In this document: positions 53,106-58,724 of the stretch, in pieces
Layout: every line of letters begins with the position of its first letter
Position numbering within the stretch: the stretch's first letter is position 1
Notes under the pieces: generated by a model
The model's input: the letters and a program-made list of their open reading frames with translations, nothing else
Told to the model about the DNA's origin: nothing
Database searches by the model: none
Position numbers and translations under genes: made by a program
Source: Enhydrobacter aerosaccus
GTDB lineage: Bacteria > Pseudomonadota > Alphaproteobacteria > Reyranellales > Reyranellaceae
DNA: 64,000 nucleotides
Direction: 5' to 3'
NCBI GenBank assembly: GCA_903915535.1
Contig: CAIWTJ010000043.1
Span: 1 to 64,000 of the forward strand

Positions 53106-54761
53106 ATGACGGACAGCCTCAAGGTCGCGCTCGCCCAGCTCAATCCCAAGGTCGGCGACGTCGCCGGCAACCTGGCGAAGGTGCGGGCGGCGCGCGCCGA
53201 GGCCGCGAAGCAGGGCGCCGACCTGATGGTCTGCTCCGAGCTGGTGCTGGCGGGCTACTTCCCGGAAGACCTCGTGCTGAAGCCCGCCTTCCAGCAGCGC
53301 TGCCGCGAGGCGGTCGAGGCGTTGCGCGCCGATACGATGGACGGCGGGCCGGCGCTATTCGTCACCGCGCCGTGGCGAGAAGAGGAGAAACTCTACAACG
53401 CGATCATCTGCCTGGATAAGGGCGAGATCGTAGGCAAGCGCTTCAAGGTCGACCTGCCCAACTACGGCGTGTTCGACGACAAGCGCGTGTTCACGCCGGG
53501 ACCGATGCCGGGGCCGCTGGTGTTCAACGGCGTGCGCATCGGCGTGCCGATCTGCGAGGACGTGTGGACGCCCGACGTCGTGGAATGCATCGCCGAGACA
53601 GGCGGCGAGATTCTGCTCGTGCCGAACGGCTCGCCGTACGAATTCGGCAAGACCGATGTGCGCGTCCAATTGGGTGTGCAGCGTGTGGTCGAAAGCGGCC
53701 TGCCGTTCGCCTATGTGAACCAGGTGGGCGGGCAGGACGAGGTCGTCTACGACGGCGGGTCGTTCGTGCTGGGCGCCGACCGCGCACTGAAAGCCCAGCT
53801 TGCGTCCTTCCGCGAGCAGATCGCGACCGTCGAGTTTCGCCGCGGGCAGAAAGGTTGGGAGTGCCAGCCGGGCCACATCGCGCCGGAGTTGAGCGATATC
53901 GAATCGATTTATCAGGCGATGATGCTGGGCCTGCGGGATTACGTGAACAAGACGGGTTTCCCGTCCGTGGTGATCGGACTGTCGGGCGGTGTCGACTCGG
54001 CGCTGACCGCCGCAGTCGCAGCGGATGCGCTCGGCCTCTCGCGGGTGAACACGATCATGATGCCGTCGCCCTACACCAGCGCGCATTCGCTGGAGGATGC
54101 CAAGGCCTGCGCGCAGGCGATCGGCATCGAGTACGAGATCGTCAGCATCGAGCCCGCGATGGAGGCGTTTCGAAAGATGCTGCTGCCGCTGTTCGGCAAC
54201 CGCAAGGAAGACGTGACCGAAGAGAACATCCAGAGCCGCGCCCGCGGTGTCACCCTGATGGCGGTGTCGAACAAGCTCGGCAGCATGGTGGTGACGACCG
54301 GCAACAAGTCGGAGATGGCGATGGGCTACGCCACGCTCTACGGCGACATGTGCGGCGGCTTCAACGTCCTGAAAGATGTCTACAAGACCACGGTGTTCGA
54401 GCTCTGCAAGTGGCGCAACGCCCACCTGCCGGACGGTGCATTGGGCAACAAGGGCATGGTGATCCCCGAGCGCATCATCACCAAGCCGCCGTCGGCGGAA
54501 CTGCGGCCCGACCAGAAGGACGAGGACTCGCTGCCACCGTATCCGGTGCTCGACGCGATCCTGCGCGGATTGATCGAGCGCGACCTTTCGGCCGAGGAGC
54601 TTGCGAAAGAGGGATTCGATGACGCAACCGTCAAGCGCATCTGGCGTTTGCTCGAAGGCGCCGAGTACAAACGTCGCCAGGCCCCGCCGGGCGTGAAGAT
54701 CACGTCGCGGCTCATCAGCAAGGAGCGGCGCTATCCCATCGTCAACGGCTTCCGGGGCTGA
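53106..54761 (+). CDS. nadE: Glutamine-hydrolysing NAD+ synthase
   Basis: Two-domain enzyme of 551 residues that amidates nicotinic acid adenine dinucleotide, the last step of NAD synthesis. The N-terminal nitrilase-type glutaminase carries the triad Glu45, Lys114 and Cys150 (CSELVLAGY, FKVDLPNYG, PICEDVW). The C-terminal synthetase has the PP-loop GLSGGVDSA (about 292-299) and the NADase-type ends VVTTGNKSEMAMGYATLYGDMCGG and RLISKERRYPIVNGFRG. The 3' end overlaps the start region of the NRAMP-like frame. Confidence 0.96.
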   Translation: MTDSLKVALAQLNPKVGDVAGNLAKVRAARAEAAKQGADLMVCSELVLAGYFPEDLVLKPAFQQRCREAVEALRADTMDGGPALFVTAPWREEEKLYNAIICLDKGEIVGKRFKVDLPNYGVFDDKRVFTPGPMPGPLVFNGVRIGVPICEDVWTPDVVECIAETGGEILLVPNGSPYEFGKTDVRVQLGVQRVVESGLPFAYVNQVGGQDEVVYDGGSFVLGADRALKAQLASFREQIATVEFRRGQKGWECQPGHIAPELSDIESIYQAMMLGLRDYVNKTGFPSVVIGLSGGVDSALTAAVAADALGLSRVNTIMMPSPYTSAHSLEDAKACAQAIGIEYEIVSIEPAMEAFRKMLLPLFGNRKEDVTEENIQSRARGVTLMAVSNKLGSMVVTTGNKSEMAMGYATLYGDMCGGFNVLKDVYKTTVFELCKWRNAHLPDGALGNKGMVIPERIITKPPSAELRPDQKDEDSLPPYPVLDAILRGLIERDLSAEELAKEGFDDATVKRIWRLLEGAEYKRRQAPPGVKITSRLISKERRYPIVNGFRG

Positions 54762-56031
54762 CAAGGCCGGCGCGCAAAAGGGGGGCGTCGCCTCACTGGC
54801 GAAACGTCTCGGTCCCGGCGTCATCACCGGCGCGGCCGACGACGATCCCAGCGGCATCGCCACCTATTCGCAGGCGGGTGCGCAAGCGGGTTTCGGCCTT
54901 CTGTGGACGGTGGTGCTCACGTGGCCCATGATGGTCGCTGTCCAGTCGATCAGCGCGCGCATCGGCCGGGTGACGGGCAAAGGCCTCGCCTCGAACATGC
55001 TTGCGGTCTTTCCGCGCCCCGTCGTTCAGGCCTTGGTCGGGCTGCTGTTCATAGCCAACACCATCAATATCGGCGCCGACGTGTCGGCGATGGGCGCGGC
55101 AGCCGGCATGTTGGCGGGTGGCGGGCGGCACATGTTCACCGTGGTCTTCGCGCTGCTCTCGCTGCTGGCGGTCGTTCTCATTCCCTACCACCGGTATGTC
55201 AGTGTCCTGAAGTGGCTGACCTTTTCCCTGTTCGCGTATGTCGGGATCGTCTTCACGGTCCACATCGATTGGGCGGCTGTCGCGCTCGGCGCCGTCCTGC
55301 CCAAGTTCGACAAGACCGGTGACATGCTCACGCTCATCGTCGCAATATTTGGCACGACGATCAGCCCCTATCTCTTCTTCTGGCAGAGCGCGCAGGAGGT
55401 CGAGGAGCAAGAAGCCGATCCCGACGCCGGTCCTTTACTCGCCAATCCGCAGCAGGCATCGCGCGAGTTGAACCGCATTGGCTGGGAGACCTGGCTCGGC
55501 ATGGGTGCTTCCAATCTCGTCGCCTTCTTCATCATGTTGACGACGGCTGTGACCCTGAACGCTCACGGCCATACCGACATCCAGTCGACCGAGCAGGCGG
55601 CAGAGGCGCTGAAGCCGATCGCGGGACAGGCGGCGTTCCTGCTGTTCAGCCTCGGGATCATCGGCACCGGCCTGCTGGCCGTGCCGGTCCTGGCAGGATC
55701 CTCTGCCTATGCGGCAGGCGAGGTGTTCGGCTGGACCACTGGCCTCGAGCGCAAGCCCGGAGAGGCCCGCGCCTTCTATGCGGTGATTTGTGCCGCCATC
55801 GTGCTGGGAATAGCCGTAGACCTCTCGCCGCTCGACCCGATCAAGGCACTCTTCTGGAGCGCCGTGTTGAATGGCGTGATCGTCGTGCCGATCATGATTG
55901 CCTTGATGATCGTCGGATCGAACAAAAAGCAGATGGGTGAGTACACGGCCACTTCGGGACAACGCATCTTCGGCTGGGGCGCTACAGCCATGATGACTGT
56001 CGCAGCGGTCGCGATGTTCGTCCTGATGTGA
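54733..56031 (+). CDS. NRAMP-like divalent metal transporter without an ordinary start codon
   Basis: Membrane protein of the NRAMP/MntH superfamily with about 11 helices. Coding must begin upstream of 54796, because KRLGPGVITGAADDDPSGIA is conserved helix-1 sequence. No ATG, GTG or TTG exists in this frame from the stop at 54694 to GTG 54910, and that GTG would remove helix 1. Candidates are ATC 54733 (seven bases after AAGGAG, inside nadE; 432 residues) and CTG 54796 (411 residues). I list the former. The metal motifs differ from MntH: DPSG replaces DPGN and TTISPYLFFW replaces the MPH region, as in NRAMP-related proteins of uncertain substrate. A start-region error in the sequence is also possible. 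Confidence 0.8.
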   Translation: MPSSTASGADKAGAQKGGVASLAKRLGPGVITGAADDDPSGIATYSQAGAQAGFGLLWTVVLTWPMMVAVQSISARIGRVTGKGLASNMLAVFPRPVVQALVGLLFIANTINIGADVSAMGAAAGMLAGGGRHMFTVVFALLSLLAVVLIPYHRYVSVLKWLTFSLFAYVGIVFTVHIDWAAVALGAVLPKFDKTGDMLTLIVAIFGTTISPYLFFWQSAQEVEEQEADPDAGPLLANPQQASRELNRIGWETWLGMGASNLVAFFIMLTTAVTLNAHGHTDIQSTEQAAEALKPIAGQAAFLLFSLGIIGTGLLAVPVLAGSSAYAAGEVFGWTTGLERKPGEARAFYAVICAAIVLGIAVDLSPLDPIKALFWSAVLNGVIVVPIMIALMIVGSNKKQMGEYTATSGQRIFGWGATAMMTVAAVAMFVLM

Positions 56032-56039
56032 TGGAGACG

Positions 56040-56057
56040 CCCTGCATAATTGCAGGG
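56040..56057. promoter_or_regulatory. Perfect 7-bp inverted repeat before the S9 peptidase gene
   Basis: CCCTGCA, TAAT, TGCAGGG lies 8 bases after the NRAMP-like stop and 13 bases before the next ATG. It may be a weak terminator or an operator, and it would also sit near the ribosome site of the S9 gene. Confidence 0.45.
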
Positions 56058-56070
56058 AGTCGATCCGTAA

Positions 56071-58065
56071 ATGTGGGGAACTCGCTTCGGGAGGCGTGGC
56101 TTCGTGCTCGCGGGCGGCCTCGCCGTCCTCGCGCGCGGCGCGCGGGCTGCCCCAAGCGACTTGATCCCGCGAGGGAAGATCTTCTCCGCCCCCGACTATG
56201 CGCGCGTCACGATGAGCCCCGATGGCCTGACGATCGCCTATCTGGCGCCGGTGGAAGGCGTGCTGAACGTCTGGGTCGCACCGGTCGCCGATCCCAAGGC
56301 CGGTAAGGCGCTCACCAAGGTGACCGATCGCGACATGCTGACCCAGCTCTGGTGGACGGGCGACAGCCGGCATGTCGTATTCTGCCGCGAGCAGGATGGC
56401 GACGAGAATTGGCAGACCCATTGCGTCGATATCGAGAGCGGCTCGACACGGCCGCTCTCCCCGGGACCGGGGGTGAAGTCGTACGTGCAGGAAGTCTCGG
56501 CCCGGTTCCCGAACGAACTGCTGATCGCCCACAACCAGCGCGACAAGCGCTTCTTCGACATCTATCGGGTCAACGCAGCGACGGGTGAGTCCAAGCAGGT
56601 CTTCCTGAACGAGGAGTTCGTCGAGCTGTTCACCGACACGCAGTTCCGCGTGCTCTACGGCCTGCGCTACCGCAGCGGCGGCACCTGGGATATCGTGAAG
56701 GCGACGGGCCCCGACGCCGGATCGCTGTTCCGCAACGTCTCCGTCGACGACCGGTACACCACGGCGCTGATCGGCGTCTCAGACGACGAGAAGCAGGCGT
56801 TCTGGCTCGACTCGCAGGGCCGCGAAAGCGCTGCCATCACCGCTCAGCCGCTGCCCACCGGCAAGCCGCGCGTGCTGGTCGAGAATCGCTCGGCCGATTT
56901 CAGCATGCCTATCCTCGATCCCGTGAAGCGTACGCCGATCGCGGCGTCGCTGATCTACACGCGCCGGCGCTGGTACACGATGGATCCGGCGATCGGGCCC
57001 GACCTCGATCGCCTGCAGGCGTCGATCGACGGCGACCTGTGTGACTTCAATCTGTCGAACGATCGCGCCAATTGGATCGTCTATGCCGAGCCCACAGCGA
57101 AGCCGGGTCGCTACTTCCACTACCGGCGCAGCGACCGCAAGACGACGCCGCTGTTCTCGACGCGGGCGGCGCTCGACGATGCCGCGCTGGTGAAGATGGA
57201 GCCGGTGGTCGTTCCCACGCGGGGCGCGTTGCGCCTCGTCTCCTATCTCTCGCGCGGCGTGGGTATCGAGCCCGGCCAGCCGGGCCCGATGGTGCTGCTT
57301 GTGCACGACGGTCCGTGGACCCGTGACTCGCCCGATTTCAACAGCGTGCATCAATGGCTCGCCAACCGCGGCTACAACGTGCTCAGCGTCAATTTCCGCG
57401 GCTCGACCGGCCTGGGCAAGAAGATCGCCAACGAGGGCGATGGCGAATGGGCCGACAAGATGCAGAACGACCTGCTCGACGCGATCGAGTGGGCGAACAA
57501 CGAGCGCATCTCGAACGAATTGCGCATCGCCATCTGCGGCGCGGGCTATGGCGGATATGCGGCGTTGATCGGTGCCTGCCTGACGCCGGATCGCTTTGCC
57601 TGCGCCATCGATCTCGGCGGCATGAGCAATCTGCTCGCGTTCGCGGAGTCGATCCCGGAGTACTGGAAGCCGTCGATGCCCGGCCTGAAGGTGCGGCTGG
57701 GCGCCGACGGTTCGAGCGAGGCCGGCCGCAAGTTCCTGGCCTCGCGCTCGCCGCTGTCCTATGTCGGTCGCATCAAGTGTCCGCTGCTGATCGCGCACGG
57801 CGTGAACGACGTACGGGTGCCGGTGGCGCAGTCCGACGAGTTCGTGGCGGCGTTGCAGCAGCGCAAGCGTCCTGTGACTTATGTCACCTACAAGGACGAA
57901 GGCCATACGTTCCGGCGGCCGCAGAATCGACTGTCGCTTGCCGCAGTCGCCGAGGCTTTCCTGGCGCAGAACCTCGGCGGCCGCGCCGAGCCGGTTGGCG
58001 ACGCGCTCGCGGGCTCCAGTATCGAGTTCCGCGCCGGGCGCGATCTGATCAAAGGGCTTCCGTGA
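56071..58065 (+). CDS. S9 (prolyl oligopeptidase-type) family protein with Ser-to-Gly at the nucleophile
   Basis: Exported protein of 664 residues. A Tat-like leader (GRRGFVLAGGLAVLARGARA) precedes a beta-propeller domain (about 40-370, with SPDGLTIAYLAP and WTGDSRHVVFCREQDGDEN). The C-terminal alpha/beta-hydrolase domain keeps NVLSVNFRGSTGLGKKIANEG, the acid Asp580 in HGVNDVRVP and His612 in DEGHTFRRP. The nucleophile elbow, normally GxSYGGY, reads CGAGYGGYAAL with Gly492 in place of serine. Peptidase activity by the standard mechanism is therefore not expected. A binding or regulatory role, or a recent inactivating mutation, are the alternatives. Codon context is otherwise normal, with no frameshift. 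Confidence 0.9.
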   Translation: MWGTRFGRRGFVLAGGLAVLARGARAAPSDLIPRGKIFSAPDYARVTMSPDGLTIAYLAPVEGVLNVWVAPVADPKAGKALTKVTDRDMLTQLWWTGDSRHVVFCREQDGDENWQTHCVDIESGSTRPLSPGPGVKSYVQEVSARFPNELLIAHNQRDKRFFDIYRVNAATGESKQVFLNEEFVELFTDTQFRVLYGLRYRSGGTWDIVKATGPDAGSLFRNVSVDDRYTTALIGVSDDEKQAFWLDSQGRESAAITAQPLPTGKPRVLVENRSADFSMPILDPVKRTPIAASLIYTRRRWYTMDPAIGPDLDRLQASIDGDLCDFNLSNDRANWIVYAEPTAKPGRYFHYRRSDRKTTPLFSTRAALDDAALVKMEPVVVPTRGALRLVSYLSRGVGIEPGQPGPMVLLVHDGPWTRDSPDFNSVHQWLANRGYNVLSVNFRGSTGLGKKIANEGDGEWADKMQNDLLDAIEWANNERISNELRIAICGAGYGGYAALIGACLTPDRFACAIDLGGMSNLLAFAESIPEYWKPSMPGLKVRLGADGSSEAGRKFLASRSPLSYVGRIKCPLLIAHGVNDVRVPVAQSDEFVAALQQRKRPVTYVTYKDEGHTFRRPQNRLSLAAVAEAFLAQNLGGRAEPVGDALAGSSIEFRAGRDLIKGLP

Positions 58066-58724
58066 AGCTCTACACCGGCCCGCTCAGCATGTTCGGCGCC
58101 AAAGCCGAGATCGCGCTGCACGAGAAGGGAATCGATTTCGAGCTGGTGATGGTGCCGTTCGAAATGCAGACGCTCTATCAGCCGAAGCATCCCGAAGTTG
58201 TGCGCATCAATCCCAAGCGGCAGGTGCCGGTGCTGGTGGATGGCGACCTCGAGATTTTCGATTCGACGCAAATCTTCGAATATCTCGAGACGATCAAGCC
58301 TGAGCCTGCGCTGTGGCCCGCCGGCGCCAAGGCCAAGGCGCGCGCACGACTGCTCGAACATATCTCCGACGAGATCTACTTCCCGCCGATCGTGCGGTTG
58401 ATGGGCCTCGGCCAGACGCCGGACGATCCCGCCGCCATCGAGGCGCGTCGCGCAGCCGGCGCCATCTACGACGATATGGAGCGTACACTGGAAGGCCGGG
58501 ACTGGCTGGGGGGCGATCTCTCCTACGCCGATATCGCCTTCTACATGGCGCAGCTCTTCGGCGAGCGCTGGGGCGTGCCGATGACCGATGCCCACCCGAG
58601 GCTGCAGGCCTGGCGCGCCCGGATGAGCGCGCGGCCGGCAGTGGCCAAGGTGGCAGGCGCCATGGCACGCTATCTCGTCTCGCAAGGCCGTCCGTTGCCG
58701 CCGTTCCTGCAAAAGGTGAGCTGA
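58062..58724 (+). CDS. Glutathione S-transferase family protein
   Basis: GST of 220 residues. The thioredoxin-like N-terminal domain starts KLYTGPLSMFGAKAEIALHEKGIDFELV, followed by NPKRQVPVLVDGDLEIFDSTQIFEYLE with the cis-Pro and glutathione gamma-glutamyl contacts. The helical C-terminal domain has LGGDLSYADIAFYMAQLF. The GTG start at 58062 overlaps the S9 stop by four bases. The stop shares a base with the next start. Confidence 0.92.
   Translation: MKLYTGPLSMFGAKAEIALHEKGIDFELVMVPFEMQTLYQPKHPEVVRINPKRQVPVLVDGDLEIFDSTQIFEYLETIKPEPALWPAGAKAKARARLLEHISDEIYFPPIVRLMGLGQTPDDPAAIEARRAAGAIYDDMERTLEGRDWLGGDLSYADIAFYMAQLFGERWGVPMTDAHPRLQAWRARMSARPAVAKVAGAMARYLVSQGRPLPPFLQKVS

Follow-up and report, generated by a model that had tools for sequence, protein, structure and literature searches.

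Why would a bacterium hold on to an exported S9-family peptidase in which the catalytic serine reads as glycine? Such a gene lies in the window, by which we mean the whole stretch of 64,000 nucleotides analyzed here, and the original prediction saw in it a pseudoenzyme kept for binding or regulation and not a gene in decay. The gene and its domains are as follows.

56071 to 58065, plus strand: S9-family pseudopeptidase gene, 664 amino acids; intact open reading frame with a Peptidase_S9 match and an AlphaFold2 model of mean pLDDT 93.2.
56071 to 56151, plus strand: putative twin-arginine (Tat-type) signal region, MWGTRFGRRGFVLAGGLAVLARGARA, read from the sequence; pLDDT below 50 for residues 1-24.
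56176 to 57198, plus strand: beta-propeller domain, about residues 36-376, from the strands of the model and a structural alignment that matches S9 acylaminoacyl peptidases along the full length.
57199 to 57990, plus strand: alpha/beta-hydrolase domain, about residues 377-640, from a PF00326 match at residues 422-637 and from structural matches.

The S9 fold and ancestry of the protein are given by a beta-propeller followed by an alpha/beta-hydrolase domain with PF00326, for which the Pfam search returned 130 bits (cut-off 22.6), and both domains of the AlphaFold2 model match S9 acylaminoacyl peptidases in structural alignment (Z about 35). It is not a member of the NCBIfam family Dpp5 (NF053518), as its score of 84.9 bits is below the curated cut-off of 900 bits. 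The N-terminus carries the twin-arginine signature GRRGFVLAGG (RRGFVL), with the arginine pair conserved in five of five pseudo-orthologues, which fits a predicted Tat export. The residues of the active site were located as listed here.

57544 to 57546, plus strand: Gly492 replacing the catalytic serine, codon GGC, in the nucleophile elbow ICGAGYGGY (57532-57558).
57808 to 57810, plus strand: Asp580, triad acid, retained (HGVNDVRVP, codon GAC); Asn in the orthologue of genome G003.
57904 to 57906, plus strand: His612, triad histidine, retained (DEGHTF, codon CAT).
57304 to 57315, plus strand: degenerate oxyanion motif HDGP, residues 412-415; HGGP in serine-bearing relatives.

The elbow thus reads I488-C-G-A-G492-Y-G-G-Y496, and the glycine codon at 57544 is confirmed within an intact frame; the GxSxGG serine of active S9 peptidases is missing. 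Asp580 and His612 are both present, as had been stated. The further claim that everything else is intact holds for the reading frame and fails for the oxyanion motif, which had been overlooked: HGGP, the oxyanion motif of acylaminoacyl peptidases (PMC3360023), reads HDGP in all four proteins with the glycine, the second residue of the motif (position 413) being Asp in 4/4 of these and Gly in 38/38 of the serine-bearing rows of the alignment.

A single wrong base in the sequence or assembly would give the same picture, and the genome is indeed a draft in 306 contigs. A search of 65 genomes from the genus, the window genome included, gave full-length orthologues, defined by an identity of 50% or more, in only six. 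Four have glycine at the nucleophile position, namely the window protein (L001), L005 (93% identity), L006 (72%) and L007 (70%). In L008 (57%) four residues including the nucleophile are deleted in frame (RVGI----YGGY), a deletion known from one genome that is 88% complete, several of the genomes compared being drafts. The sixth, L009 (50%, within the genus), has serine, as do L034, L035 and L036, which lie outside the genus but within its family, and, altogether, 38 of 38 aligned S9 relatives outside the two lineages of pseudopeptidases described here; in a phylum-wide sample the serine was kept by 29 of 29 other matches, some of which overlap with the 38. Across the clade the glycine is encoded by GGC or GGA, and this synonymous change means that the residue has outlived its codon. 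The serine codon is AGC in L034, L009, L035 and L036, one transition away from GGC, so that a single A-to-G transition would explain the origin of the glycine. With the same residue in independent assemblies, one of them using a different glycine codon, an error at one base is rejected as vanishingly improbable, and a private mutation is likewise excluded. The original prediction had turned on whether close relatives share the glycine or all keep the serine: four orthologues of one clade share it (L001, L005, L006 and L007), and their sister has no elbow at all.

In a tree of 45 rows the four glycine proteins form one clade (support 100/100) with L008 as its sister (100/99), and the catalytic residue is therefore absent across an orthologous group of five genomes and one clade. 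The serine may have been lost a single time ahead of the split, with the elbow deleted afterwards in one of the lines, or there were two separate losses. Five residues (A40, S274, P421, N436 and R479) are common to all five pseudo-members and absent from the serine-bearing relatives; a single early change would fit these residues and is unproven by them. Nine positions conserved in the serine-bearing relatives, Ser492 and Gly413 among them, are changed in all four glycine proteins. A second lineage is represented by L078 and L079, which belong to a single genus in a different family of Alphaproteobacteria; their elbows read GEGYGGY and GEGFGGY and they have also lost the Asp and the His, while L166, a relative in the same family, has kept its serine. 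Since L078 and L079 take a separate place in the tree, the sampled Alphaproteobacteria contain at least two separate origins of S9 pseudopeptidases. The L079 gene adjoins a RimK/Zn_protease fusion gene.

The retained Asp580 and His612 raise the possibility that some hydrolysis or transfer persists through this pair or through another residue, and some so-called pseudoenzymes are active by way of migrated residues (PMC10211241). We regard such residual or different catalysis as very unlikely, given that the sister protein L008 is missing the whole elbow, that the triad acid is Asn in L006 (HGANNVRV) and that the oxyanion motif is degenerate. Cys489 was considered as a replacement nucleophile and rejected, as it is Ala in L007; this cysteine beside the elbow is not conserved. 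The pseudoenzyme reading is well supported.

It could also be that the gene has fallen out of use and is drifting away, its losses elsewhere in the genus being the next step. Its patchy presence in the genus agrees with such neutral decay, as do the higher NG86 dN/dS values of distant pairs (0.24-0.45), though both saturation and base composition bear on them; distant-pair values being saturated, they were not relied on and only close pairs are quoted. The close pair L001 and L005 gave a dN/dS of 0.08 (YN00) to 0.13 (NG86), as expected of a gene kept under strong purifying selection, with 0.11-0.16 for the propeller and 0.06-0.12 for the hydrolase domain, and the hydrolase domain is thus still constrained although the nucleophile is gone. 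The pair L078 and L079 gave about 0.06, and the neighboring NadE and Nramp-like genes are under tighter constraint (0.02-0.05). All five open reading frames are intact, and on average about 62 of the 71 hydrolase positions conserved in serine-bearing relatives are still retained; the elbow-less L008 too has a confident full-length S9 model (pLDDT 89). That both domains are under purifying selection speaks against decay, which we hold to be distinctly unlikely, and together with the conserved glycine it bears out the earlier view of a pseudoenzyme. What weighs against this view is that the function is dispensable in the genus, as a full-length orthologue is found in so few of its genomes.

We turn to the locus, in which RidA, NadE, Nramp-like, S9 and glutathione S-transferase (GST) genes follow one another, all on the plus strand.

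54745 to 56031, plus strand: Nramp-like transporter gene, directly upstream of the S9 gene (PF01566, 256 bits).
56040 to 56057, plus strand: hairpin CCCTGCA-TAAT-TGCAGGG in the gap between Nramp stop and S9 start, over a likely Shine-Dalgarno sequence GGGAG.
58062 to 58724, plus strand: glutathione S-transferase gene (GST_N and GST_C), its start overlapping the S9 stop codon.

Between the Nramp stop and the S9 start lie 39 bp. The same five-gene order is found in G002, G003 and G033, and so in four of the five genomes; in G063 genes for an MdoG-like protein and a glycosyltransferase stand between NadE and Nramp (L047, 12364-15755) and a beta-lactamase-like gene separates S9 from GST, with Nramp and S9 still adjacent. 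This adjacency holds for five of five pseudo-members versus none of the four nearest serine-bearing members (L009, L034, L035 and L036), and, as adjacency and serine loss fall on one branch, they count as one event. The hairpin has z-scores of -5.9 in the window, -3.5 in G002 and -2.5 in G063, and was not significant in the same gap of G003 and G033; lying over the probable ribosome-binding site of the S9 gene, it suggests that translation of this gene is coupled to that of the Nramp-like gene. A scan for promoters and terminators gave nothing beyond chance.

The Nramp-like gene itself has no ATG, GTG or TTG before the first transmembrane motif (window 54745-54910; L044 about 7950), and the position of the ATG start of the G003 and G033 genes is ACG in the window genome and G002, so that a non-standard start is possible. 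Canonical Nramp motifs are DPGN and MPH. The protein encoded here (window 54760-56031) has DDDPSG in the place of the former and SPY in that of the latter, and its metal selectivity may differ from the canonical one.

By analogy with DPP6 and DPP10, ancillary subunits of Kv4 channels, the S9 protein might be an ancillary subunit of this transporter, docking on its periplasmic side and tuning gating, assembly or metal supply. The adjacency persists even where the outer neighbors differ, as in G063, the serine-bearing relatives do not adjoin Nramp, the hairpin hints at coupled translation, and DPP10, which has the same Ser-to-Gly change (GKGYGG), is a channel subunit (PMC4350108). Against this, most genomes of the genus without the S9 gene have Nramp, often with GST directly behind it, by which a strict dependence of Nramp on S9 is rejected; the clade also shows no new conserved histidines as metal ligands, and neighbors in an operon often do not interact. 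We consider this role possible but rather unlikely; the constant Nramp neighbor lends it weak support and makes it worth testing.

The probable answer is a two-domain S9 (acylaminoacyl-peptidase-like) protein, putatively exported by the Tat route, whose catalysis is gone and which selection maintains for binding; retention for binding or regulation would be the best reading of this pseudopeptidase. Having no nucleophile, it would form no acyl-enzyme and would thus bind a periplasmic peptide or protein partner without cleavage, either in the cavity that lies between its propeller and its hydrolase domain or on its outer surface. Judging from position, it would most likely be made together with the Nramp-like transporter and serve the same envelope function. 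An active close paralogue as the target of regulation was looked for in this genome and rejected: besides the window protein it has two full-length S9 proteins, C295 and C43:71616, both distantly related and with the elbows GGSAGG and GGSNGG.

Pseudoproteases are common: a prokaryotic survey that covered five other families counted 42 among 966 serine proteases (PMC2605481). However common they are, though, no description of a bacterial S9 pseudopeptidase clade was found in the literature searched. Here, at one conserved locus, the nucleophile has been lost, and single members are missing the acid or the entire elbow. Serine-bearing relatives are ready controls and a second, independent Ser-to-Gly lineage is available, which makes the question of why a dead S9 scaffold is retained a tractable one here. 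The automatic annotation "S9 peptidase" is misleading for such genes.

Among proteins of known structure, the acylaminoacyl and other S9 peptidases 5l8s, 1ve6 (Aeropyrum pernix), 5yzn (Deinococcus) and 7c72 (puromycin-hydrolysing) share the two-domain architecture, with about 550-590 residues aligned by VIA-align (Z 34-36) and 5l8s as the best sequence match (E 1.8e-40); they have Ser in GxSxGG and HGGP, whereas the window protein has Gly and HDGP. MamO is an alphaproteobacterial pseudoprotease which has lost catalysis, kept its scaffold and binds a transition metal (PMC4794232); it has a trypsin fold and not that of S9, and MamO-like gained metal-binding histidines were sought in the pseudopeptidase clade and rejected, no conserved histidine motif having been gained. 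The closest functional analogue may be DPP10, a Kv4 channel subunit with a catalytic Ser-to-Gly change (PMC4350108). A full bacterial counterpart of DPP6/DPP10, in which an exported S9 protein would be ancillary to the Nramp-like transporter with its synthesis coupled through the hairpin, strikes us as unlikely. DPP10 resembles the window protein in its Ser-to-Gly change (GKGYGG and GAGYGG, respectively), in keeping Asp and His, in combining propeller and hydrolase domains and in its place outside the cytoplasm (PMC4350108); DPP10 and DPP6 differ in being type II membrane proteins of animals and in belonging to another branch of S9, whereas the window protein is bacterial with a predicted Tat-type export.
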